A stretch of 64,000 nucleotides of DNA from the NCBI RefSeq assembly GCF_002139875.1, contig NZ_CP018793.1, positions 248,001 through 312,000 on the forward strand, given 5' to 3'. This DNA is from Campylobacter vicugnae (GTDB taxonomy: Bacteria > Campylobacterota > Campylobacteria > Campylobacterales > Campylobacteraceae). The notes beneath the pieces are model-generated. The model was given only the letters and a program-made list of their open reading frames with translations, was not told the origin of the DNA and did no database searches. The translations under genes and the position numbers were made by a program. The stretch's first letter is position 1, and every line of letters starts with the position of its first letter. Below, piece after piece: positions 24,677 through 60,513 of the stretch.

Positions 24677-24694
24677 AAAAAAAAAGGGGGGGGG
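24677..24694. repeat. A9G9 double homopolymer tract in the 5' leader
   Basis: Nine A (24677-24685) directly followed by nine G (24686-24694), ending 6 nt before the ATG at 24701. The G-run occupies the place of the ribosome-binding site. Runs of this length slip readily in Campylobacter, so tract length probably varies in a population and may tune translation of the downstream gene. Confidence 0.9.
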
Positions 24695-24700
24695 TTGAGC

Positions 24701-26000
24701 ATGGAACAAAATAGAATGTATAAGCTAATCTCTAAACTTTACAAAATTCCACGCAGTATCACAGGAGATGGCTTTAGAGATAGTCTTGATATAATCGATG
24801 AAGCTATTGGGGGGGGTAGAGCGATTTAGTATCCCAAGCGGTACGCAGGTTTATGATTGGAGAGTTCCACCTGAGTGGGTAATCCGTGATGGGTATATAA
24901 TTACACCAAATGGCAAAAAAATTTGCCAATTTAAAGAACACAATCTACATATACTTAACTACTCAGCACCTATTGATAAAAAATTAAGCTTAGATGAGTT
25001 AAAAGAGCATATATACACTATACCAGAACTACCAAACGCTATTGCTTATGTTACTAGTTATTATGAGCGTAGATGGGGATTTTGCATATCTTATAATGAG
25101 CTAAAAGAGTTACCAGATGGAGAGTATCACGCTTTTATAGATAGTGAGTTTAAAGATGATGGCGAGCTAAATTACGCTCATATCATTATCCCATCTACTA
25201 CTGGCAATACCAAAGAGATTTTAATCTCATCATATCTATGCCACCCTCAAATGGCAAATAATGAACTTAGTGGCCCAACAGTATGGAGTGAGCTTATTAG
25301 ATGGGTTAGAAGTTTAAAACATAGAGAATATACATATAGATTTGTAATAGTTCCTGAGACGATAGGCTCAATTTGCTATATTAATCGTAATTTTAAAACG
25401 CTTAAAGAGAATGTAGTAGCTGGATTTGTGCTTAGCTGTATTGGCGATGATGGAGACTATAGTGTCGTTTTAAGCCCTGATGAAAATAGCCTAAGCGATA
25501 TAGCTACTCTTCACACTATCAAGCATATAACCAAAGAGCCAAAAATATACAAATTTTTAGATCGTGGAAGTGATGAGAGACAGTACAATACGCCAAATTT
25601 AAATCTTGGTGTTACGACAATTTGTAGAAGTTTATTTGGTCATTTTGATGAGTATCATACTAGTTTAGATGATTTGGATTTTGTTACTCCTTCTGGACTT
25701 GAAGGTGGATTTAATTATGCTAGAAATTTGATTGAAAATTTAGAAATCAATAAAAAATATATACTTACTACAATTTGTGAGCCAAATTTAGGTTCGCGTG
25801 GACTTATTGGCACTCTTAGTATTAAAGGTTCATATAACGTTGAGTATAAAAAACTTCGCACATTTTTAGCCTATTGTAATGGCAAAAGAAGCGTTATAGA
25901 GATAGCTGATATTTTAGGTGTAGAAGCTAGAAGTCTAAAGCCTATAATAGACAAATTGCTTGAATTTGAATTAATAAAAGAGATAAATACAAAAGATTAA
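24701..26000 (+). pseudogene. Phase-variable Cj1295-like flagellin-glycan modification protein (DUF2172/DUF4910), OFF by frameshift
   Basis: From ATG 24701 the frame reads 42 codons (MEQNRMYKLISKLYKIPRSI then TGDGF...) and hits TAG at 24827-24829 just after a G8 run. The rest of the protein, from GVERFSIPSGTQVYDW on, lies in another frame to 26000. Removing one G (G7) or adding two (G10) joins them into 432 aa. The restored protein has the DUF2172/DUF4910 aminopeptidase-like domain (metal-site candidates SSYLCHPQ, ELSGP, VPETIGS, and FDEYHTSLDD) and a winged-helix C-terminus (about the last 75 residues). Cj1295 of C. jejuni, also controlled by a poly-G tract, is required for a di-O-methylglyceric acid modification of pseudaminic acid on flagellin. 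This is a switchable gene, not a dead one. An internal ATG at 24798 lacks a good ribosome site. Confidence 0.88.
24809..24816. repeat. G8 phase-variation tract inside the Cj1295-like gene
   Basis: Eight G at codons 37-39 of the gene. At G8 the reading frame ends three codons later; at G7 or G10 it stays open to 26000. This is direct evidence for an ON/OFF contingency locus, in the OFF state here. Confidence 0.93.
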
Positions 26001-26010
26001 GGAACTTTTT

Positions 26011-26052
26011 ATGGCTATTGACAAAAAGTTAATGGGAGAGGGAGATGATTAG
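26011..26052 (+). CDS. Possible 13-residue leader ORF overlapping the ligase start
   Basis: ATG at 26011 has AAGGA seven bases upstream and encodes MAIDKKLMGEGDD, ending TAG at 26050-26052. The next gene's ATG (26045) lies inside it, out of frame. It could couple translation of the ligase to upstream ribosomes or be chance. No product is known. Confidence 0.3.
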   Translation: MAIDKKLMGEGDD

Positions 26053-28264
26053 CAATATTTATGAGTTTTTAGATAAGAGTGTAAATTTATATCCCGATAA
26101 AAAATTATTTGTAAGCAATAAAAAAAGTATTAGCTATTTGGAATTTGACCAACAAGCCAAGTCTTTAGCTAGTAAGATTTTAGAATTTAAATTAAATAAA
26201 AAGCCAGTTTTGATAATCCTACCAAAGTCTATTGAAGCACTTATAGCGATGTTTGGCGTAGCTAAAAGTGGAAATTTTTATAGTATTATAGATGAGAAAA
26301 TGCCAAAGGCTAAGGTAGAAAAGATAGTAAAAATCCTAAATCCAGTTTTGATTATTAGCTCAAAATCTATAGAGTGCGATTATGGTATAAAAACTATATA
26401 TGATGATGAATTTGATAGTTTTAAGCCAAATTTAGCCTTGCTTAATAGTGTCGAAATTATTGATACAGACTTGCTTTATGTATTATTTACAAGTGGTAGT
26501 ACTGGAGAGCCAAAGGGTGTAAGCATTAGCCATAAAAGCGTGATTGATTATACATTTTGGGTTAGTAAAACCTTTGATGTTGGAAGTGATGAGATATTGG
26601 TAAATCAAGCACCATTTTATTTTGATAATTCTATTTTAGATATTTTTACTACTATTAAGTGTGGTGCTACATTACATCTTTTAGATACTTTTGAATTTGC
26701 TTTTCCTAGTAGGGTGCTTGATTATTTAGAGGCAAATGGCGTTACTATGATATTTTGGGTGCCTAGTGTATTGATATATTTTGCAAATACTATGGCATTA
26801 GAAGGGAGAGAGTTAGCCACTCTTAAAAAGATTTTATTTTGTGGGGAGATAATGCCAAATCGTCAGCTAAATATATGGCGTAAGGCTTTACCTGGTAGAG
26901 TATTTGCTAATTTATATGGTCCTACTGAAATTACTGATGTGTGCTGCTATTATATATGCGATAGAGAGTTTGGCGATGATGAGCTTCTTCCTATTGGCAA
27001 AGCGTGCAAAAATACTCAAATTTTACTATTTGATGAGAATTTAAATTTGATAACTCAGCCATTTATAAAAGGTGAATTATGTGTGCGAGGTAGCTCACTT
27101 AGTTTAGGATATTATGCTGATTTATCTAAAACCTCTAATGCCTTTATCCAAAATCCTTTGCATAATAACTACTACGACCCGATATATAAAACAGGTGATA
27201 TTGCAGCGTATAATGAGTATGGTGAGTTAATCTGTTATGGTAGATTAGATTCTCAAATAAAGTTAAATGGCCATCGCATAGAACTAGGCGAGATAGAAGC
27301 AGCGCTAAACTCTCATCTATTTATAGATCGTTGTGCGTGTAAATTTAATGGCAAAGAGATAGTAGCATTTTATGAATCTAGTGATGAGATAGCAGATATT
27401 AAGGAATTTCTAGCCTTAAAAATACAAGGATATATGATTCCAAAAAGCTTTATAAGAGTAGATAAATTCGCTCTAAATGCTAATGGCAAGATAGATAGAA
27501 AGGCTCTAAATTGTTATTATCTAAAATTAGAAGGGACAAAGATAAGATATGATAGTGCTGTTGTAATTGGTAAAGGCAAAATTGCCAATGAATGCGTAAA
27601 AATGCTAAAAGAGCGTAATATACCAGTTGAGCTTGTTAATTATAATGATATAAATTTAGATAGCTATTTTAACTCTTTAAAAAATAAGTTCATAATAAGT
27701 GCCAATAATTTTTATATATTTAAATCAAAATGTATAGAAAATAACATCATAATAAACTACCATAATGCTTTAATATCTAAACATAGAGGAGTTAATGCTC
27801 ATATCTGGGCTATATGGGATGATGATGAATATAGTGGAATCGTATGGCATAGAGTTGATAATGGAATTGATACTGGAGAGATCTTAATACAAAAATATAT
27901 AAAAATTGATAATATGAGCGCTAAAGAGCTTTTATTAGCTCAACATAGAGCAGCTATTGAGAGTTTTAAAGAGCTTATAGATGTGGAATTTGAAGTAAAG
28001 CAGTTAATCACAAATGATAAAAATGGCAAACTTCACAAAAAGAAAGAGTTGCCAAATAATGGGATTTTGGATTTATCTTGGGAGCAAAAAAAGATAAATA
28101 GATTTTTAAGATCTTTTGATGTGGGTGTATTTTGCGATATAGAGTATCCTAAGGTTGAAGTCAATGGAGTATTTTTAGAGATTGAGAGCTATGAAATAAA
28201 TAGCGATGTGATAACTCTTAATTTTACAAATGGTGAAAGATTAAATTTAAAAGGATTAAAATGA
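26045..28264 (+). CDS. DltA-like amino-acid adenylation domain fused to a formyltransferase domain
   Basis: Two-domain protein of 739 aa. Residues 1-490 are an adenylate-forming ligase: A3 LFTSGSTGEPKGVS (147-160), A4 QAPFYFDNSILDIF with Asp194 at the position that binds the substrate amino group, A5 NLYGPTE (289-295), A7 YKTGD, A8 GRLDSQIKLNGHRIELGEIE (399-418) and A10 lysine Lys482. The A4 region is most like D-alanine ligase DltA and C. jejuni Cj1307. Residues about 505-739 look like a 10-formyltetrahydrofolate-dependent formyltransferase: Asn571 and His573 (NYH) and Asp609 (GIDTG) match the Asn-x-His and Asp of methionyl-tRNA formyltransferase, with the same 38-residue Asn-to-Asp spacing as E. 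coli Fmt Asn106/Asp144. Expected role: activate a small amino acid for the carrier protein encoded next and formylate it or a sugar amine. Confidence 0.85.
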   Translation: MISNIYEFLDKSVNLYPDKKLFVSNKKSISYLEFDQQAKSLASKILEFKLNKKPVLIILPKSIEALIAMFGVAKSGNFYSIIDEKMPKAKVEKIVKILNPVLIISSKSIECDYGIKTIYDDEFDSFKPNLALLNSVEIIDTDLLYVLFTSGSTGEPKGVSISHKSVIDYTFWVSKTFDVGSDEILVNQAPFYFDNSILDIFTTIKCGATLHLLDTFEFAFPSRVLDYLEANGVTMIFWVPSVLIYFANTMALEGRELATLKKILFCGEIMPNRQLNIWRKALPGRVFANLYGPTEITDVCCYYICDREFGDDELLPIGKACKNTQILLFDENLNLITQPFIKGELCVRGSSLSLGYYADLSKTSNAFIQNPLHNNYYDPIYKTGDIAAYNEYGELICYGRLDSQIKLNGHRIELGEIEAALNSHLFIDRCACKFNGKEIVAFYESSDEIADIKEFLALKIQGYMIPKSFIRVDKFALNANGKIDRKALNCYYLKLEGTKIRYDSAVVIGKGKIANECVKMLKERNIPVELVNYNDINLDSYFNSLKNKFIISANNFYIFKSKCIENNIIINYHNALISKHRGVNAHIWAIWDDDEYSGIVWHRVDNGIDTGEILIQKYIKIDNMSAKELLLAQHRAAIESFKELIDVEFEVKQLITNDKNGKLHKKKELPNNGILDLSWEQKKINRFLRSFDVGVFCDIEYPKVEVNGVFLEIESYEINSDVITLNFTNGERLNLKGLK

Positions 28265-28485
28265 AAGAGATAAAAGAGCTTTTTAATAAAATTGGTAAAA
28301 GTGATATAGATGAGAGTATGACAAATTTGCTAAGCGATGGAATTATTGATAGTATGGATATAATGGCATTAGTAGTTGAGATAGAAAAATTATATAAAAA
28401 ACCTTTAAAATCAAAATTTATTATTAATGAAAATTTTGAGAGTTTTGAATCGATTTGTAAGATGTTAGATGAGGCAATGCAATGA
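28261..28485 (+). CDS. Acyl/aminoacyl carrier protein
   Basis: Carrier protein of 74 aa with the phosphopantetheine attachment motif GIIDSMD (Ser31), close in length and motif (D-S-M rather than the D-S-L of fatty-acid ACP) to DltC and C. jejuni Cj1308. It overlaps the ligase gene (ATGA) and the acyltransferase gene (ATGA), so the three are made together. It probably holds the aminoacyl or formyl-aminoacyl group as a thioester. A phosphopantetheinyl transferase must come from elsewhere. Confidence 0.9.
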   Translation: MKEIKELFNKIGKSDIDESMTNLLSDGIIDSMDIMALVVEIEKLYKKPLKSKFIINENFESFESICKMLDEAMQ

Positions 28486-29267
28486 ACTCTATTGCATTAA
28501 TAGAGGCTAATGGTAGGATTTATAATTATAATGATTTAATAAATTGCTTACATCAAATAGGAATAGGCAAGGGCGATATACTTTGCGTGCATACTGAATT
28601 AATCGCTCTTGGCAGACCACTTGTGAGCAAAAATGAGTTTTTAGATTCTATTATTAGGGCGTTTTATGAGGTTATAGGTAGGGCTGGGACGCTGATTATG
28701 CCGACATTTACATATAGCTTTTGTAATAATCAAATTTATGATAAATGCAATTCTAGAAGCACAATGGGGCTATTAACTGAGTATTATCGTCATTGCGATG
28801 GCGTGGTGCGAACTGATGATCCGATATTCTCTTTTGCTATTGGTGGAGCAAATGCAAGCGAGTATCTAATCCGCACACCAACATGCTTTAGCAAGGGTTG
28901 TGTATATGATAAGTTAAGACAAAATGGTGGCAAGATAGTGCTGTTTGGCCTAACTCATCTAGGATATACATTTACTCACTATATTGAAGAGCAAATTGGC
29001 GTAAGTTATAGGTATTTTAAGCGTTTTAGCGGTTTAATGATAGATGAGAGTGGCAATGAGAGTAAGCAAAGTATAGAGTATTATGTCAGAAAGCTCGATA
29101 AAAACTCTGAAATATCAATACCAAAGCAAATAGAGATATTAAAACGCTCTAATAATTTTAATCTTGTGCCATTTGGTAATGCTATGATAGTAGCTATAGA
29201 CGCTCAAAAATATTACAAAGAGACCTATAAAGCTATAATACAAAATGAAAATAATATATTGCAGTAA
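28482..29267 (+). CDS. AAC(3)-family N-acyltransferase (Cj1296/Cj1297-like)
   Basis: Protein of 261 aa in the aminoglycoside 3-N-acetyltransferase fold family, with the hallmarks CVHTELIALG near the N-terminus, LIMPTFTYSF, a DDPIFSFAIGG segment and FGLTHLGYTFTHYIEE. Family members in Campylobacter flagellar loci transfer acyl groups to sugars rather than inactivating drugs. Coupling to the carrier protein suggests it takes the acyl group from that protein and moves it to a nonulosonate amine or hydroxyl. A resistance role is unlikely from context. Confidence 0.85.
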   Translation: MNSIALIEANGRIYNYNDLINCLHQIGIGKGDILCVHTELIALGRPLVSKNEFLDSIIRAFYEVIGRAGTLIMPTFTYSFCNNQIYDKCNSRSTMGLLTEYYRHCDGVVRTDDPIFSFAIGGANASEYLIRTPTCFSKGCVYDKLRQNGGKIVLFGLTHLGYTFTHYIEEQIGVSYRYFKRFSGLMIDESGNESKQSIEYYVRKLDKNSEISIPKQIEILKRSNNFNLVPFGNAMIVAIDAQKYYKETYKAIIQNENNILQ

Positions 29268-29288: not shown

Positions 29289-30416
29289 TTAGCTACATAT
29301 TGTAGCAAGAGCATATTTATCTAGTAATTCATTTAAATTTGATATAATAAACCTAACATCATCATCGCTCATCATCTGGTGGCATGGCAGACTAAGTTCT
29401 GCTCTATAAAAATCTTCTGCTCCAGATAAGAACTGCTCACCATAAAGCTTTTTGTAAAAACTAAATTGATATGTAGGTTTATAATGTACTTGCACGCCAA
29501 TGCCTCTAGAGTGAAGCTCATTAAATATATCCTCTTTAGCACACCATAAATTTGAGTTTAAAAGTACTGGATATAGATGTCTGGCGCTGCGTATATGGCT
29601 TGGAATTTTAATTGTTTTTAGATGTTTTGAGTCGCTAAATGCATCTTCATAAATTGCTGCTATCTCATCACGCCTAGAGATAAACTCATCAAGTCTTTTA
29701 AGCTGAGATAGCCCAAGAGCGCACGCCACATCGCTTAAGCGATAGTTATATCCCATACTTATCATATCCATATTCCACGCCTGTTTTTTTACCATACCAT
29801 GAGAGCGTGTAAGTCTAGCTGATTTGGCGATATCTTCATCATTAGTTAGTAGTGCGCCGCCTTCAAATGTAGTAATAGGCTTAATAGCGTGAAAGCTAAA
29901 GATAGTTATATCAGCTAAATTTCCTATCATTTTGCCATTTATACTGCTACCTAATGCATGGCTAGCATCATCGATAATCTTTATACCGTGTTCTTTGCTT
30001 ATATTTTTTATCTCATCCATATTTACAGGTAGTCCGCCAAAATCTACTGCAGTAATAACTTTTGTTTGTTTATTTATTAGATTTTTTATGGAGTTTGGAT
30101 CTATATTGCCATTTGATAAAACATCAGCAAATTTGACATTTACTCCACACATTATAGCTGCATTTGCTGTGGCTGCAAAGGTGATTGGTGTAGTGATTAT
30201 CTCATCGTTTTTGCATACACCAAGAGCTATATATGCAGCGTGTAGAGCAGATGTGGCTGAATTCATAGCTACGGCAAATTTTGCTCCAGTAAGCTTACAA
30301 AGTGCTTCTTCAAACTCTACTACACGCTCTCCACAAGTAAGCATATCGCTTTTTAGTGCTTCTACTACTGCATCTATATCGCTATTATCAATCTTTTGTC
30401 TGCTATATACTATCAT
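29289..30416 (-). CDS. pseC: UDP-4-amino-4,6-dideoxy-N-acetyl-beta-L-altrosamine transaminase PseC
   Basis: DegT/DnrJ/EryC1 aminotransferase of 375 aa, second step of pseudaminic acid synthesis. It closely follows the PseC pattern throughout: opening YSRQKIDNSDIDAVVEALK, TTPITFAATANAA, DDASHALGS, the PLP-lysine segment FHAIKPITTFEGGA, LTRSHGMVKK, MGYNYRLSDVACALG and GVQVHYKPTYQFSFYKKL. It lies convergent to the Cj1295-like cassette and just downstream of dcd. Its partners PseB, PseH, PseG and PseF are not in the window; PseI is at about 60 kb. Confidence 0.93.
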   Translation of the reverse strand: MIVYSRQKIDNSDIDAVVEALKSDMLTCGERVVEFEEALCKLTGAKFAVAMNSATSALHAAYIALGVCKNDEIITTPITFAATANAAIMCGVNVKFADVLSNGNIDPNSIKNLINKQTKVITAVDFGGLPVNMDEIKNISKEHGIKIIDDASHALGSSINGKMIGNLADITIFSFHAIKPITTFEGGALLTNDEDIAKSARLTRSHGMVKKQAWNMDMISMGYNYRLSDVACALGLSQLKRLDEFISRRDEIAAIYEDAFSDSKHLKTIKIPSHIRSARHLYPVLLNSNLWCAKEDIFNELHSRGIGVQVHYKPTYQFSFYKKLYGEQFLSGAEDFYRAELSLPCHQMMSDDDVRFIISNLNELLDKYALATICS

Positions 30417-53242: not shown

Positions 53243-53932
53243 TTATTTTCTTCCAATAAATATAAAATGCCTTGAGCTGCCTTCAAAGTTATATAGATTA
53301 ATTGGTGTATAATCTCCCCAGTAAAGCGGCTCAAATAGACTAAAATCAGATTTAAGCTCTTCAATACTATGCGTAAATCTAATATATGAGTTTTCGCTCA
53401 TTCTATTTGTTGGTGTGCCTTGGATATGAATTAAGCCATTTGGTAAAGGCTTGGATTTTTCATAAAGATCGTAGCACTCGTTAGCCATCATAGTAGCAAA
53501 TATTATAGCACCATCATTGCAGAGGTTATATAGCTCTTTTATGGTTGAATTAAAGTTTTGATTATTTAGATAGTATAGACTTTGATTGGCAAATATAAAG
53601 TCCATCTTCTCATCAAAAAGGTGAGAAAATGATGAATTTGGTTCAATAATATGAAAGTCTTTTTCACAAATTAGCTCATCATTACGCCAAATTTGCTCTA
53701 AGCTTGGCACTATATCTATACCAAAAGGCCTAATCCCCCCCCCCGAACGCTTAGCAAAATATTTAGAGTGAACTCCATTGCCACAGCCAAAATCTAGTAA
53801 ATTCCCGCTAGTTTTATTAAGAGCGAAATTTAAAATTCTCTCATAAAACCGAATCACATGGCCATCTGGAAACTCCAAACCATAACCTTGCGTATCATAC
53901 TTTGTAACATATGCTAATAGTGAATTATCCAT
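53243..53932 (-). CDS. Phase-variable class I SAM methyltransferase (Cj1325/Cj1326-like)
   Basis: The protein is 229 aa with motif I LLDFGCGNG (residues 45-53) and a following acidic end of beta-2 (PFGIDI). A G10 run encodes Ser-Gly-Gly-Gly at residues 63-66, between motif I and beta-2; at G10 the frame is open to the end (ON), at G9 or G11 it would be cut. C. jejuni has a poly-G methyltransferase (Cj1325/Cj1326) at the matching edge of the legionaminic locus, so O- or N-methylation of a nonulosonate is the likely role (inference). It follows ptmA after 29 nt with an AAGGAT ribosome site. Confidence 0.87.
   Translation of the reverse strand: MDNSLLAYVTKYDTQGYGLEFPDGHVIRFYERILNFALNKTSGNLLDFGCGNGVHSKYFAKRSGGGIRPFGIDIVPSLEQIWRNDELICEKDFHIIEPNSSFSHLFDEKMDFIFANQSLYYLNNQNFNSTIKELYNLCNDGAIIFATMMANECYDLYEKSKPLPNGLIHIQGTPTNRMSENSYIRFTHSIEELKSDFSLFEPLYWGDYTPINLYNFEGSSRHFIFIGRK
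53735..53744. repeat. G10 (minus strand) phase-variation tract in the methyltransferase
   Basis: Ten consecutive C on the plus strand, coding G10 on the transcribed strand. In frame here, so the gene is ON. Confidence 0.93.
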
Positions 53933-53961: not shown

Positions 53962-54696
53962 TTATAAGCAAAATCCATCATCTACGATTATATTTTGTCC
54001 ATTAATAAACTTGCTATAATCACTAAGTAAAAATATTAAAGCCCCGCAGATATCATCTGGGTCTAACATACCTTTATTTAGACAGACATCTTTGTATTGA
54101 CTTAGAAATATCTCATTTTGATTATCTAGTATTCCACCTGGACTTATGCAATTGACTCTAATATTATCCCCTTTTAGATATTTAGCTAGGTAGCGACTTA
54201 GATGAATAACTCCAGATTTAATAGCGCTATAAGCTACTGGAGAACTCATCTGTGTATTTTTATAGGTTTGAAATTTAGGTGCTACTACGCCTTGAATAGA
54301 TGAGAGTGTGATTATATTGCCATATCCTTGTGATTTAAAAAATTTAGCAAATCTTTGCATAACCAAAAACGCTCCACCAAGTTGAAGATTGGTATTAACG
54401 CAAAAATCCTCATACTCTACATCAAAAAAGTGGTTAGAAAAGCTTTTTGTTCTTGGATAGGCTGAATTTACCACAGCATCTATTTTGCCATATTTTTGAC
54501 TGATTAATTCTATTAGATTATCAAGTGAGCTTTTATTGGTTATATCAGTATGGATAAACTCACAATCTAGTTTTGTGTTTGGCTGATTTATATCTGCGTT
54601 GATTACTGTAGCGTGATTTTGTATAGCTGATTTTACAAAAGCTTTGCCGATTAATCCTGAACCGCCAATTATTATAACTACTTTATCTTTAAGCAT
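53962..54696 (-). CDS. ptmA: Short-chain dehydrogenase PtmA
   Basis: Oxidoreductase of 244 aa with the NAD site GGSGLIGKAFV near the N-terminus and the catalytic YSAIKSG motif (Tyr-x3-Lys). In C. jejuni PtmA belongs to the flagellin glycosylation locus and to early steps supplying the GDP-hexosamine precursor of legionaminic acid, together with PtmF. It overlaps ptmB by 8 nt and has AAGGAG upstream. Confidence 0.88.
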   Translation of the reverse strand: MLKDKVVIIIGGSGLIGKAFVKSAIQNHATVINADINQPNTKLDCEFIHTDITNKSSLDNLIELISQKYGKIDAVVNSAYPRTKSFSNHFFDVEYEDFCVNTNLQLGGAFLVMQRFAKFFKSQGYGNIITLSSIQGVVAPKFQTYKNTQMSSPVAYSAIKSGVIHLSRYLAKYLKGDNIRVNCISPGGILDNQNEIFLSQYKDVCLNKGMLDPDDICGALIFLLSDYSKFINGQNIIVDDGFCL

Positions 54697-55387
54697 TTTT
54701 ACTCCTTAAAATATGCTCTACTATCATAAAATCAAGCTCATCATCTATATCAATGCTGCGATTTGCAGGCATTACATATAGTCCAGTTTTAGGCAAAAAC
54801 AAGGTATCGTTATTTAATAAAACTAAAGATTTCCATATATAAATTGAAGCGTTCATATCATATGTAGCCGGAGCATCTTGACGGCGTAAAATTTGATTTG
54901 GTAGAGTTTTGCTAAGATTTATCTTGCCATCTATTTTTTCTATTAGATTAAAGTATGGACTTCTACGACTTGGCGTAGCAGTAATAAGAATATCATTATC
55001 ATCACGCATAAACTGCTCAAAAGCCATATTAATATCGCTAGATAGACGCAAAGGAGATGTGGCATCAAGGTCTATAATATAATCAAATTTATGTTTATAA
55101 TACTCTTGGCTTTTTAGCAAGGCATCACGGATTACAGCTAGTTTGCCAGCAGTATCACTAGCTAAAGCACTATCTCGTTTAAAAAAGACCTCTGCTCCAT
55201 ATTTTTGCGCTGTAGAGGCTATCTCATCGCTATCAGTACTAATTACAATATGCTTAAATAAACCGCACTCTTTGGCTTGATTTATAGTGTGAGCAATGAG
55301 TGGAAGACCAGCAATTGGGCGGATATTTTTATTTTTCACACCTTTGCTACCGCCTCTAGCACAGATGGTACATAGTATATTGCTCAT
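54689..55387 (-). CDS. ptmB: CMP-legionaminic acid synthetase PtmB/LegF
   Basis: Cytidylyltransferase that activates legionaminic acid for transfer to flagellin. The start at 55387 gives 232 aa beginning MSNILCTICARGGSKGVKNK, the canonical ARGGSKG nucleotide-binding start, with AAGGAAAA before it; a longer frame would overlap ptmF. DLDATSPLR is also typical of CMP-sialate synthetases. ATGA overlap with ptmF. Confidence 0.9.
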   Translation of the reverse strand: MSNILCTICARGGSKGVKNKNIRPIAGLPLIAHTINQAKECGLFKHIVISTDSDEIASTAQKYGAEVFFKRDSALASDTAGKLAVIRDALLKSQEYYKHKFDYIIDLDATSPLRLSSDINMAFEQFMRDDNDILITATPSRRSPYFNLIEKIDGKINLSKTLPNQILRRQDAPATYDMNASIYIWKSLVLLNNDTLFLPKTGLYVMPANRSIDIDDELDFMIVEHILRSKNA

Positions 55388-56277
55388 ATATTTTCCTTTT
55401 GAATTTGATCTATTAGTCGCATTGTATCCATAGCTTGAGAAAATGTACATATATGATTTTGCATATTTAAAGCATCCATATGCATTGCTTTAAATGTATC
55501 GTTTCTTTGTAAATTTGGTTTTTGTATTTGAGTGATTTTTCCATCTTGATCTACTATTTTAAGTCTATTTGTGATGAGGTCAAGATGATAGCTATTATTA
55601 TTTGTTTCAATTAAAATTTGACGATATGGTGTTTTGCTTAGATAATTTAGGCTGATATTTATTAAAGTCTTATTGCATTTGGCTAAAATCATACAAATAT
55701 CATCGCTAGTGATATTTAAATTTGAGACTTTAGCTTGGCAAGATTTAATCAATTCTAATTTAGAATCGCATAAAAAGCTAAGATAATCAATCTCATGGCT
55801 AAGATCGAGTAAAACCCCGCCACCAAGCTCCTTTTTAGCGCTATAAGAGCTAGTATATTTTCGTTTTCTCCATGATGGCAAATATTGACCGCAGCGTGCT
55901 TCAATAGTTAAAATTTCGCTTGGATTTAGCATATTTTTTAGCTCTAGAATTAGTGGATGAAAACGCAGATTATACCCAATAAAAATCTTATTATTTGGAT
56001 TAAAATCTCTAAATTTATCAAATAAAGGCTTTTCGCAAAGTATGATTTTGCCGCTTACATTTGTATCTATATAGCTAAGATGTTCATAGTGTAAATGCGT
56101 TGGTGATGCAATGATAAAGTAATCAAATTTATCCAAATTTACACTTTTTAAATCATTAAAACACTCTAGTGATCTTATAATTTGTGAAGTGATAGCACTT
56201 ACTTCTATTCCCATAGAAGTTAAAACCTCTGCGTGTCTAGTGCCGATTGAGCCCATAGAGATAATTAATGCTTTCAC
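55384..56277 (-). CDS. ptmF: Gfo/Idh/MocA-family oxidoreductase PtmF
   Basis: The protein is 297 aa. The N-terminal Rossmann fold (ALIISMGSIGTRHAEVL) is followed by the EKPL motif (ILCEKPLF) and the GYNLRFHP segment of the family. PtmF is proposed in C. jejuni to act with PtmA in supplying the amino-sugar precursor of the GDP-linked legionaminic pathway. It overlaps ptmE and ptmB by 4 nt each. Confidence 0.87.
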   Translation of the reverse strand: MKALIISMGSIGTRHAEVLTSMGIEVSAITSQIIRSLECFNDLKSVNLDKFDYFIIASPTHLHYEHLSYIDTNVSGKIILCEKPLFDKFRDFNPNNKIFIGYNLRFHPLILELKNMLNPSEILTIEARCGQYLPSWRKRKYTSSYSAKKELGGGVLLDLSHEIDYLSFLCDSKLELIKSCQAKVSNLNITSDDICMILAKCNKTLINISLNYLSKTPYRQILIETNNNSYHLDLITNRLKIVDQDGKITQIQKPNLQRNDTFKAMHMDALNMQNHICTFSQAMDTMRLIDQIQKENI

Positions 56278-57311
56278 AAGAAAAACTCGCTATAAATTTC
56301 ATTTGCCATATTATACTCTTCTATTCTTCCTATATCTAGCCATTTTTCATTGATTGGATAGGCTTTTGGGTTTTGTTGGTTTGTAGCTAGAGTGTTAAAT
56401 AGATCTGGCATATCTAGATACTCATTTTTTGGTATTAAATCTAGAATTTGTGGATTTAGCATATATATTCCAGCACTTACATGAAATTTATGTCTAGGCT
56501 TTTCAGTAATTGATTTAATGGTATTATCATCTAAATTTACAACTCCATATGGGACTTGCATCTCATACTCTCTTACGCACATTGTAGCTATAGATTTATT
56601 GATTTTGTGATAGTGATGAAGTTTGCTAAAATCGGCATTAGTAAGCAGATCTGCATTCATTACAAAAAACTCATCTTCTATCTTATCTATCAAGCTTAAA
56701 GCCCCAGCCGTACCTAAAGGTTTGCTCTCTTGAATATAGCTAATATTTACGCCAAATTTATCCCCATCACCAAAGTAATCACAGATAATTTCAGATTTGT
56801 AATTAACACATATTGTAAAATTAATATATCCGTAGGCTGTAAAGCTTTCAATTATTGTTTGAAGGATTGGCTTTGGCCCTACATGTAGCATAGGTTTTGG
56901 GATTTTGCTAGTAAGGGGTCTAAGTCTCATACCAAGACCTCCAGCCATTAATATTACTTTGTTTGGTTTTGGAGTATTTGGTTCGTAGATATTTTTGATA
57001 GCTATTGCTACACCATTTTGATCTACAATTGGTATATAGCGTATATTTTTTGCCTTAGCTTTAGCGATTATAGAAGCTGGTATTGTAGGTGAGTTAGATA
57101 TAATTGGAGTACGATAATATAGTGGTTCTATGCTATAACTAAGCTCCATAGAGTTTAGTAAGCCACGTCTGATATCTCCATCGCTTATAGTGCCAAGCAA
57201 AACTCCATTATCATCAACGACTAAAGCCATTTGCAAAGCACCATTATCTATGATTTTTAAAGCCTCTTTTATGGTGCTAGTTGGGCTTATTTTGATGGAG
57301 TTTATATCCAT
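56274..57311 (-). CDS. ptmE: Glucosamine-1-phosphate guanylyltransferase PtmE (CBS + nucleotidyltransferase)
   Basis: Makes the GDP-amino-sugar that starts the Campylobacter legionaminic route. From the ATG at 57311 (345 aa) the order is two CBS motifs (about residues 1-115) then a nucleotidyltransferase with KVILMAGGLGMRLRPLT and the metal aspartate in VMNADLL. The start at 57311 has AAGGA at good spacing and begins the CBS domain directly. An in-frame ATG at 57362 overlaps the legG stop and would add 17 residues encoded across a G9 run; which start is used may depend on that run. Confidence 0.88.
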   Translation of the reverse strand: MDINSIKISPTSTIKEALKIIDNGALQMALVVDDNGVLLGTISDGDIRRGLLNSMELSYSIEPLYYRTPIISNSPTIPASIIAKAKAKNIRYIPIVDQNGVAIAIKNIYEPNTPKPNKVILMAGGLGMRLRPLTSKIPKPMLHVGPKPILQTIIESFTAYGYINFTICVNYKSEIICDYFGDGDKFGVNISYIQESKPLGTAGALSLIDKIEDEFFVMNADLLTNADFSKLHHYHKINKSIATMCVREYEMQVPYGVVNLDDNTIKSITEKPRHKFHVSAGIYMLNPQILDLIPKNEYLDMPDLFNTLATNQQNPKAYPINEKWLDIGRIEEYNMANEIYSEFFL

Positions 57312-57334
57312 ATTATATCCTTCATAGCGTTCAA

Positions 57335-57343
57335 CCCCCCCCC
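57335..57343. repeat. G9 (minus strand) tract between legG and ptmE starts
   Basis: Nine consecutive C on the plus strand. The tract lies within the 48 nt between the legG stop and the preferred ptmE ATG at 57311, and is in frame with an upstream ATG at 57362. G10 would create GGT TGA, ending that frame at once; G8 would shift it past the downstream ATG to a TAA. Confidence 0.9.
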
Positions 57344-57358
57344 AACTCAATCTACTGC

Positions 57359-58507
57359 TCATACTATATCCTTAAATCTTTTGATGGTGATACCTTTTAA
57401 ATTTATATTTTTTAATATTTTAATTATAGCCTTACTTGGCTTTGCATTACCATATGGATTTTGCTTTTTTTGGACTATTTTTTGAAATTTTGGAGTATAG
57501 GCTAGTTTTATTGCTTTTAGAATTTGAGATTTTATAGGTTTTACATCAATTACACTTAAAGCCTTTAGCCTACCATCTTGTCTTGAACCGACATTTATAG
57601 TAGCAACACCCATACTTGGAGCTTCTAAAAGTCCGCTTGAGCTATTGCCTAAAATGATATCTACATGTTTTAAAGCACTTAGATATCTTAGACTACCTAA
57701 AGAGGCAAATGCAATGGAGTTTGGATTAGTCTTTACATACTCATCTATCATTTTATTTATCGCTATTCCACCAGCATCGCTATTGGCTTTAGTAAAGATG
57801 ATGTTGGTATCTTTTAGCTCATTTATAGCTTTTAAAATCTCTTTAAATTCATTTTGATTATCTTTTTGTGTGGTAACTGGATGATAGGTAACTAAGATAT
57901 TTTTTTTATTTAGTTTAAAATTGATCGAGCTTTGGAATTTGCTTTTATTTAGCAGCTTTAATCTTTTGATATTTTCTATTCCCATTCCGCCAACATTAAA
58001 TATAAACTTAGGATCTTCGCCTAGTTGAGCTACTCTTTTGGCATACTCTTTGGTTGCAGTAAAGTGAATGTGAGACATCTTAGTAATGCTATGTCTAAAG
58101 GCCTCATCAATAGCTCCAGCACTTAACTCTCCGCCATGTATATGAGCAATAGGAATGCCTAGCACAAGTGCAGCACAAGCAGCACAAAATATCTCATATC
58201 TATCACCTAAAACAACTACAATATCTGGTTTTAAATCATTTAGAGCTTTGCTAATTTGAGCCATAGCTTCTGCCATAGATTTACACACGCCAAGAGCATC
58301 ATTGGAAAAATTTAATATATCTATCTTTTTGTCAATATTAAATTCATTTTGAATTTGTAAATATGTATTGCCATATTCACTTCTTAAATGGCTACCAGTT
58401 ACTATTAATTGAAGTTGCAAGCTCTTACTCATATTAAGCTCTTTAATAAGCCAATATAGTAGCCCATACTCAGCTCTAGAACCTGTAATTACGCAAATTT
58501 TTCTCAT
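57359..58507 (-). CDS. legG: Hydrolysing NDP-sugar 2-epimerase LegG (NeuC2)
   Basis: The protein is 382 aa, of the UDP-GlcNAc 2-epimerase fold: N-terminal VITGSRAEYGLLYWLI, VVLGDRYE, HIHGGE and the C-terminal GNSSSGLLEAPSMG nucleotide loop. In C. jejuni LegG hydrolyses the GDP-linked diacetamido sugar with inversion at C2, giving the free hexose for LegI. It overlaps legI by 4 nt. Confidence 0.93.
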   Translation of the reverse strand: MRKICVITGSRAEYGLLYWLIKELNMSKSLQLQLIVTGSHLRSEYGNTYLQIQNEFNIDKKIDILNFSNDALGVCKSMAEAMAQISKALNDLKPDIVVVLGDRYEIFCAACAALVLGIPIAHIHGGELSAGAIDEAFRHSITKMSHIHFTATKEYAKRVAQLGEDPKFIFNVGGMGIENIKRLKLLNKSKFQSSINFKLNKKNILVTYHPVTTQKDNQNEFKEILKAINELKDTNIIFTKANSDAGGIAINKMIDEYVKTNPNSIAFASLGSLRYLSALKHVDIILGNSSSGLLEAPSMGVATINVGSRQDGRLKALSVIDVKPIKSQILKAIKLAYTPKFQKIVQKKQNPYGNAKPSKAIIKILKNINLKGITIKRFKDIV

Positions 58508-59502
58508 ATTATCTCATCTTCTTTATAATCTTTTTGTGCTATTGTTCCTATTATCTCATCCCATCGCATTGGGTTAATTCCTGGTGGAGTTGTCCTTTTA
58601 GTAGTGATATTTTGTTCGGTAAAAATTTCCCCCTTTGCAATATCGCATTTTGCTACGATGGATTTTCTAGCTATGTTTATATTTTTGATCTCGCTTGGGC
58701 TTGGACGTTTAATACCATCGCCAAGGGCTAGTTCTATGGCTCTAATTCCTTCTACCATGGCCTTTAGCTCATCTGGTTCTAAGCTAGCCTTGTGATCTGG
58801 GCCAGGCTGATTCTTATCTAGGGTAAAGTGTTTTTCTATCATAGTTGCACCAAGGGCAACTGCTGCAATAGGCACAGCAATACCAAGAGTATGATCGCTA
58901 TAACCAAATTTAACTCTAAATTCTTTAGCGATACTATTCATAGCTAGTAGATTAACATCACAAAATGGGGTAGGATACTCAGTATTGGCGTGCAAGATGG
59001 TTATATCTTCGAGTTTTATATAATCTTTAAAAACCCTCATAGCAGCTGCTATCTCATCCATTGTCGCCATACCTGTAGATAGGATTATTGGTTTTTGAAA
59101 TTTAGCTATGGTGCGTAATAAAGGGAGATTTGTTATCTCTCCACTTGGAATTTTAAAAGCTTTAAGATTAAGGCTAAAGAGTTCATTAGCCGAATCTATA
59201 TCAAATGCAGTAGATAAAAAATCAATACCAAGACTCTTAGCATGTGATATTAATTGTATATGATCGTTATAGCTTAATTCAAGCTGTTTTAGCATCTGGT
59301 ATTGATTTTGATTTGCGTTTGTAGTTTGCTTTTGATAGGCGGCTTTTTGGGCTGTTTTACTAGCTAAGTTTTTAGCCTTAAAGGTTTGAAATTTAACCGC
59401 ATCGGCCCCAGCCTTATAAGCCTCATCAATTAAAGCCTTAGCAGTATCTAAATTGCCATTATGATTGACTCCAGCCTCTGCTATTATATATACCTTTTTC
59501 AT
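58504..59502 (-). CDS. legI: Legionaminic acid synthase LegI (NeuB2)
   Basis: NeuB-family aldolase of 332 aa that condenses the sugar from LegG with phosphoenolpyruvate. It has the N-terminal AEAGVNHNG and KFQTF motifs, STGMA, EKHFTLDKNQPGPDH and a C-terminal antifreeze-like domain (SIVAKCDIAKGE onward). The EAGVNHNG form and position next to legG favour LegI over sialic acid synthase. It lies 3 nt after pseI. Confidence 0.92.
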   Translation of the reverse strand: MKKVYIIAEAGVNHNGNLDTAKALIDEAYKAGADAVKFQTFKAKNLASKTAQKAAYQKQTTNANQNQYQMLKQLELSYNDHIQLISHAKSLGIDFLSTAFDIDSANELFSLNLKAFKIPSGEITNLPLLRTIAKFQKPIILSTGMATMDEIAAAMRVFKDYIKLEDITILHANTEYPTPFCDVNLLAMNSIAKEFRVKFGYSDHTLGIAVPIAAVALGATMIEKHFTLDKNQPGPDHKASLEPDELKAMVEGIRAIELALGDGIKRPSPSEIKNINIARKSIVAKCDIAKGEIFTEQNITTKRTTPPGINPMRWDEIIGTIAQKDYKEDEII

Positions 59503-59505
59503 AGC

Positions 59506-60513
59506 TTACTCAAAATCATCAAGCTCTAATGGCTTAGCAAATTTAAGATCTTTAGTAGCCTTTTTGCCTATAACATCATCATAGTAGCGTGGATGAAGAC
59601 CTTGAGCTGGACGAATAGAGCGGATATTTTCAGGGGTTAGAATTTGGCCTTTTTTAATATCTTGTGTTACAAAAAGCGATCTAGCGTATTTGCGATTTTG
59701 CTCATTAAAGCTATAATCAACCTTGCCAAGAGCTTTATAAGCATTTTTAACTGCTTTTGTCATCATGCTAAATTCATCTTGATTTAAAGAAAATCCACTA
59801 TCTTCTCCGCCTAAAGCTCTATCAAGAGTAAAGTGTTTTTCTATCACGCTTGCACCTAAAGCAACAGCGCAGATTGGAACTTCTAAGCTCATTGAGTGAT
59901 CGCTTAGCCCAACCTTTACACCAAGTGGAGCAAATCTAGATATCATATCAGATATTGTTGCAATATTCATATCTTCTATTTGGGCTGGATAGTTGGAGGT
60001 GCATTTAAGGATCGTTATATCGTGATTGCCAACACTTTTACAAGCTTCTATAGCTTCATAAATTTCATCAATTGTAGATACTCCAGTAGAGATTATCATC
60101 GGTTTTTTATGTTTTGCAGCATATCGAATTAGTGGATAATCCATAGCTTCAAAAGAGGCAATTTTATACCTACTAACATTAATACTTTCTAAAAAATCTA
60201 CTGCACTAAAATCAAACGGTGTGCTAAAAAACTCAATCCCAATCTCATCAGCATAAGTTTTAAGATCAGCCTGCCACTGCCATGGCGTATAGGCTTTTTG
60301 ATATAGTTCATATAGACTTTGACCAGCCCACAAGCCATCATCTCTAGTCATAAATATCTCATCGCGACAATCAATAGTAATAGTATCAGCGGTATATGTT
60401 TGAATCTTAATAGCATCTGCGCCAGAGTCTTTGGCAGCTTTGATAATTTTAAATGCTAAATCCTTATCCCCGCAGTGATTAGCCGACATCTCAGCTATAA
60501 CAAATGGACTCAT
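59506..60513 (-). CDS. pseI: Pseudaminic acid synthase PseI (NeuB3)
   Basis: NeuB-family aldolase of 335 aa. The EMSANHCGD start (PseI type, where LegI has EAGVNHNG), IKIQTYTADTI, LKCTSNYPAQIEDMN and EKHFTLDRALGGEDSGFSLN all agree with C. jejuni PseI. The first gene of the eight-gene minus-strand operon, with GGAGTTACT before the ATG. It links this operon with pseC at 30 kb; the other Pse enzymes are outside the window. Confidence 0.93.
   Translation of the reverse strand: MSPFVIAEMSANHCGDKDLAFKIIKAAKDSGADAIKIQTYTADTITIDCRDEIFMTRDDGLWAGQSLYELYQKAYTPWQWQADLKTYADEIGIEFFSTPFDFSAVDFLESINVSRYKIASFEAMDYPLIRYAAKHKKPMIISTGVSTIDEIYEAIEACKSVGNHDITILKCTSNYPAQIEDMNIATISDMISRFAPLGVKVGLSDHSMSLEVPICAVALGASVIEKHFTLDRALGGEDSGFSLNQDEFSMMTKAVKNAYKALGKVDYSFNEQNRKYARSLFVTQDIKKGQILTPENIRSIRPAQGLHPRYYDDVIGKKATKDLKFAKPLELDDFE

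Follow-up and report, generated by a model that had tools for sequence, protein, structure and literature searches.

Amino-acid adducts such as N-acetylglutamine on the pseudaminic acid of Campylobacter jejuni have been reported, and their genes were described as uncharacterised (PMC3068675, 2010). Cj1295 of C. jejuni is tract-controlled and required for the di-O-methylglyceroyl form of flagellin pseudaminic acid, and the same authors suggested that Cj1295 removes the N5 acetyl group (PMC3068675). The flagellin glycosylation region of Cj1295, Cj1297, Cj1307 and Cj1308 is the closest described counterpart of the locus studied here. The two have in common DUF4910, an AAC(3)-like transferase, a DltA-like adenylation (A) domain and a free carrier, as well as poly-G tracts and a neighbourhood of pse genes; identity in relatives is approximately 50–65%. 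We take Cj1307 and Cj1308 to be the names of the A domain and the carrier of C. jejuni. Formyltransferase (F) domains are known both from the initiation module of LgrA (F-A-PCP) and from WbkC, FdtF, QdtF, WlaRD and PseJ, and PseJ (PDB 6ci2 and 6ci4) is a formyltransferase of a pseudaminic-acid pathway.

We analysed a stretch of 64,000 nucleotides of Campylobacter vicugnae, referred to below as the window. It contains an operon in which a DUF4910 gene of the Cj1295 family, an A–F fusion gene, a carrier gene and an AAC(3)-like acyltransferase gene follow one another. Unlike the C. jejuni region, the window has a formyltransferase fused to the A domain and no adjoining FkbH/methyltransferase glycerate branch. 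A preliminary description of the locus had likened it to the F-A-T start of linear gramicidin synthetase. This holds as an analogy, since LgrA also has F and an amino-acid A domain in one protein working with a carrier and the F domains are homologous (4e-15), but in the window the order is A then F, the carrier (on its own gene) and the acyltransferase are separate proteins, there is no condensation domain, and the predicted F fold is nearer to the sugar formyltransferase WbkC (Z 19.1) than to LgrA F (Z 13.3). DltA–DltC resembles the window in having an A domain with a discrete small carrier, whereas the window A domain reaches 279 bits against a DltA equivalog cut-off of 560, has a different pocket code and carries an F domain, and no DltB or DltD was seen alongside it. 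WbkC, FdtF, QdtF, WlaRD and PseJ share the fold over approximately 220 residues (Z 17–19; PseJ by profile only) and the catalytic Asn-His-Asp, but the window F domain is linked and fused to an enzyme that would load an aminoacyl carrier.

Results

The fusion gene (26045–28264, + strand) is one open frame of 739 aa. The frame, the Pfam matches and the residues Asp194, Lys482, Asn571, His573 and Asp609 bear out the earlier account of an A domain joined to a formyltransferase. The A domain (26045–27511, +) comprises residues 1–489, with AMP-binding at residues 10–357 (PF00501, E 2.2e-61) and AMP-binding_C at residues 416–482 (21.7 bits, slightly below the cut-off of 24.5). The F domain (27527–28264, +; residues ~495–739) continues in the A-domain reading frame, and Formyl_trans_N covers residues 541–631 (PF00551, 53.1 bits, cut-off 26.1, E 4.2e-14). 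The frame contains no ATG, GTG or TTG from residue 486 to residue 519, so the F domain can be made only within the fusion. In the nearest relatives, whose A domains are 82% identical, the A gene ends at a stop codon, and F is a distinct gene that overlaps it in another frame. The junction differs from these separate genes by approximately 29 bases and is therefore not a one-base sequencing slip; an origin of the fusion in a sequencing or assembly error was rejected on the basis of this difference and the lack of an internal start, as seen in one strain of the species. C. troglodytis looked fused at first, but its A frame has a stop approximately 33 bases before the F start. The F gene occurs in 26 of 153 genomes of the family, and the window copy alone lies within a frame longer than 277 residues. 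The fusion is genuine and rare, confined to this genome among the 153, and it is an exception within a system whose other members keep A and F as separate genes.

By fold, catalytic residues and profile, the F domain is predicted to be a folate-dependent formyltransferase of the PF00551 superfamily. The AlphaFold2 model (21 homologues) has a mean pLDDT of 87.9 and a pTM of 0.85. Its top solved structure among the matches listed is WbkC (Z 19.1, 223 residues, rmsd 3.1), followed by FdtF, QdtF, WlaRD and others (Z 17–18), ArnA and Fmt (Z 16–17) and LgrA F (Z 13.3). Profile matches follow a similar order, with WbkC at 4e-26, FdtF at 3e-19, LgrA F at 4e-15 and PseJ at 4e-13. The nearest kin of the F domain in sequence and modelled fold appear to be sugar N-formyltransferases. 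The preliminary assignment of the C-terminus to the formyltransferases was thus upheld by the profile (53.1 bits) as well as by the folded model. None of the 23 F homologues differs at Asn571, His573 or Asp609, and the 36 residues from His573 to Asp609 agree with the spacing claimed earlier for Escherichia coli Fmt. Directly after the catalytic loop the window copy has Ile577-Ser578 where 22 of the 23 have Leu-Pro. Against the nearest relatives dN/dS is 0.20 for the F domain and 0.11 for the A domain, with no clear relaxation of F compared with separate F copies; this purifying selection argues for a working F domain. Identity to the nearest relative (L032) is only 57% for the window F, as against 81–82% for A and AAC(3), and because of this gap F may have been swapped through recombination at about the time when the fusion arose.

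The A domain has the core motifs of amino-acid-activating adenylation domains, including Asp194 (the equivalent of Asp235) and the catalytic Lys482 (the equivalent of Lys517). It scores 305.4 bits against TIGR01733, slightly below the cut-off of 317.4, and 279.4 bits (E 5e-83) against the DltA equivalog TIGR01734, whose cut-off is 559.85. Pocket positions (235–331) were numbered on GrsA and gave the code D-N-L-F-L-C-L-D-V. This code is nearly constant among cassette A domains over 55–82% identity, with F present or absent; a few have D-N-L-F-L-A-L-V-D. We know of no specificity that matches the main code, and naming the amino acid from it was abandoned; a small amino acid is a plausible substrate. 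Asp235, which binds the alpha-amine, is kept in all F-linked A domains examined. F thus pairs with more than one pocket type, and its presence leaves the main code unaltered, as expected if F caps the amine. Tandem A domains with different pocket codes stand beside F in three Helicobacteraceae loci (L162:3401-6461, L165:7910-11114 and L163:10253-13511), and these look as if two amino acids were loaded.

Upstream of the fusion gene lies the DUF4910/DUF2172/HTH_47 gene (24701–26000, +), which is aminopeptidase-like (PF16254 1.2e-72, PF09940 1.7e-36, PF16221 1.6e-14; PDB 3k9t 7.9e-81). Downstream are the carrier gene (28261–28485, +, 74 aa), which scores 13.9 bits with PF00550, below the cut-off of 20.8, and is DltC-like at 1.1e-4, and the AAC(3)/FrbF-like acyltransferase gene (28482–29267, +, 261 aa), which matches PF02522 at 6.5e-31 and FrbF and AAC(3) structures at 4e-8 to 1e-5. 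The carrier gene overlaps the fusion gene by four bases, as the acyltransferase gene does the carrier gene. Ser31 of the carrier, the predicted phosphopantetheine site in a D-S motif, is invariant in 49 of 49 copies. pseC, for UDP-4-amino-4,6-dideoxy-N-acetyl-beta-L-altrosamine transaminase, converges on the operon (29289–30416, −; TIGR03588 488 bits, cut-off 423.5). The carrier and the acyltransferase had been recognised before, but the Cj1295-like gene directly upstream and pseC directly downstream had been missed. A nonulosonate cluster (53962–60513, −) encodes PtmA-like, CMP-NulO synthetase-like, GFO/IDH/MocA oxidoreductase, nucleotidyltransferase with CBS, NeuC-like epimerase and NeuB-type synthase proteins and PseI, the last 25–30 kb from the operon. 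As in a Cj1295-type tailoring cassette, the genes for DUF4910, A, the carrier and the AAC(3)-like enzyme thus stand together beside pse genes. This conserved gene set probably decorates a flagellar sugar with a formylated amino acid. PseH is encoded above cut-off elsewhere in the genome, which leaves no need for F to replace PseH, although not every sugar role of F is thereby removed.

Cassette gene content and order were mapped at approximately 40 loci. The recurring set, which is common in relatives, consists of DUF4910, A, an optional GNAT (~245 residues, RimI-like core), an optional F, the carrier and the AAC(3)-like gene, and it often follows pseB–pseC. GNAT and F were considered as strict alternatives, and this was rejected as many cassettes carry both. 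An A gene is present in 24 of 26 family genomes with F and in 33 of 127 without it (p 2e-10, with kinship ignored and independence therefore overstated); in the other two genomes with F, the F gene is at a contig end. The A gene lies within 5 kb of F in 38 of 41 F loci. F adjoins the carrier gene in 21 of the 25 genomes examined from the family, and the same arrangement occurs at four Helicobacteraceae loci. At one distant F locus (L155) there is no A gene nearby. The Helicobacteraceae order is a fused A–DUF4910 (981 and 1005 aa; L156:4107-7052, with the set spanning L156:4107-9001, and L153:8329-11346), then F, carrier and AAC(3)-like. On plasmid pAtCFBP5507a of Agrobacterium salinitolerans, A, carrier and F are consecutive genes in a polysaccharide-like cluster (L167:4062-6810). 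The Agrobacterium A domain and the Helicobacteraceae fusion have nearly the same pocket code (D-L-H-F-L-C-L-I-S/A). This triad has three functions in common with the window, but its F is only 28% identical and unfused, and no DUF4910 or AAC(3) gene is present in the annotated stretch. The recurring linkage, together with the different fusions, suggests that A, F, DUF4910, carrier and transferase act as a single functional unit, in which different pairs of parts have become fused.

G/C runs of at least 7 occur at only four places in the window. An A9G9 tract (24677–24694) stands directly before the DUF4910 start at 24701, and a G8 tract (24809–24816) splits this gene, so that its frame is broken in the assembly and a downstream frame runs from 24798 to 26000. 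The run at 53735 is inside a methyltransferase-like gene (53243–53932), and that at 57335 is on the 3' side of the NeuC-like gene. Their positions, all in or beside nonulosonate-related genes, suggest that these runs are contingency loci. With the DUF4910 frame broken, the last steps of the pathway may be off in the sequenced clone. In relatives, a G/C run of at least 9 is found in the F gene at 9 of 12 loci with GNAT and at 3 of 16 without it (p 0.004, with kinship ignored and the pattern found post hoc), and the F frames of the other three GNAT-bearing loci are broken. Where GNAT and F are both encoded, the formyl cap could be subject to switching. In the window, F lacks a tract and is fixed by the fusion.

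Discussion

Our data favour, with some reserve, a route in which the amino acid is formylated while bound to the carrier. The A domain would use ATP to activate one amino acid, plausibly a small one, and attach it to the phosphopantetheine arm of the carrier encoded next to it. The F domain would then formylate the alpha-amine of this carrier-bound amino acid, with N10-formyl-tetrahydrofolate as the donor, and the AAC(3)-like enzyme would pass the N-formyl-aminoacyl group from the carrier to a sugar amine. The Cj1295-like protein may free this amine beforehand by removing an acetyl group. The target sugar would be a nonulosonic acid, for which the pseudaminic acid of flagellin is the likeliest candidate. 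Each chemical step, like the amino acid and the sugar position, is something we infer, set beside the domains, residues, fold, selection, operon and linkage conserved across the family and order that were observed.

The preliminary description had proposed the same order of loading, formylation and transfer. It stands as the best-supported reading, in that F tracks A, adjoins the carrier and goes with a conserved Asp, but its small-amino-acid step is only plausible, the pocket code having no known match. Formylation on the carrier is favoured because A and F share one frame without an internal start, because F genes follow A genes and usually adjoin the carrier gene, and because two different fusions (A–F and A–DUF4910) join members of one set. 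The retained Asp235 in F-linked A domains, a code that is near-constant with or without F, and the neighbouring A, carrier and F genes of the Agrobacterium plasmid point the same way, as do the presence of PseH in the genome and the purifying selection on F (dN/dS 0.20). In addition, Cj1295, the homologue of the DUF4910 protein, is needed for acyl-modified pseudaminic acid (PMC3068675). Against formylation on the carrier, gene linkage does not reveal the substrate, the L155 F gene has no A gene nearby, the division of labour is ambiguous in the many cassettes with both F and GNAT, and the DUF4910 frame is broken in the assembly.

The kinship of F with sugar N-formyltransferases also counts against it, and makes direct formylation of a sugar the main and a serious rival, although on balance we consider it unlikely. 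The preliminary description had already named it as an ArnA-like alternative. F would in that case act on the amine of a nonulosonate or a UDP-sugar precursor, as PseJ, WbkC and ArnA do, while A and the carrier supply an aminoacyl group for another position and the fusion serves only to express together two enzymes that tailor one sugar. The top fold and profile matches of F, the pseC gene adjoining the operon, pseI within the window and the example of PseJ in a pseudaminic-acid pathway all agree with this. What it leaves unexplained is that F is linked to A and carrier genes and not to sugar enzymes alone, that F is fused to A in a genome with its own PseH, and that A, carrier and F form a triad on the Agrobacterium plasmid. 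A fold like that of sugar formyltransferases would also suit formylation after transfer, where the AAC(3)-like enzyme first attaches the amino acid to the sugar in free form and F then formylates the aminoacyl-sugar, with gene set and final product unchanged; as F lies beside the carrier gene and shares its chain with the loading enzyme rather than with the transferase, we regard this as quite improbable. Loss of F catalysis after the fusion, leaving F as a docking or structural part, could be suspected from Ile577 and Ser578 in the window copy. The kept Asn, His and Asp, the confident fold, and a dN/dS of 0.20 with no clear relaxation make this explanation highly improbable.

If F formylates the carrier-bound amino acid, the locus offers a testable donor pathway for the aminoacyl decorations of flagellar nonulosonates and a second route to a formyltransferase acting with an amino-acid loading domain, outside the classical NRPS assembly lines. 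Hosts sense formyl peptides, and formylated amino acids on a surface organelle would for this reason interest immunologists. More tentatively, a poly-G switch in the F gene of relatives could toggle the cap between N-acetyl (by GNAT) and N-formyl. A dissociated NRPS-like pathway would then cap flagellar sialic-acid-like sugars with a formyl-amino acid and display a phase-variable formyl-peptide-like group, a sugar-type formyltransferase having come to act on carrier-bound amino acids separately from the gramicidin line; we hold this wider scheme to be doubtful. Each part is already known, and the gene set as a whole is a variation on flagellin-glycan tailoring genes that have been described. 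As far as our tools show, what is new is that a single chain runs from A to F, that this chain belongs to a cassette for flagellar sugars, that A and F are constantly linked with the carrier across the family and beyond, and that the tracts follow the pattern given above. None of the papers searched mentions Cj1307 with Cj1308, PseJ with formyltransferase, or N-formylalanyl sugars.

In a sister species (L110, G007), a broken A gene (81% identical) is the sole remnant of the cassette, which appears to be in the course of loss there, as only this broken gene is kept. A second, unfused A domain lies beside rpoD in the window genome (L100:10123-12542, G000 C1:1062123-1064542). It is 56% identical, has a different pocket code (D-L-F-I-I-C-L-L-A), and is accompanied by genes for a separate carrier, for a cysteine-cluster protein (CxxCxxCC) and for a protein like CDP-alcohol phosphatidyltransferases; it is conserved in sister species.
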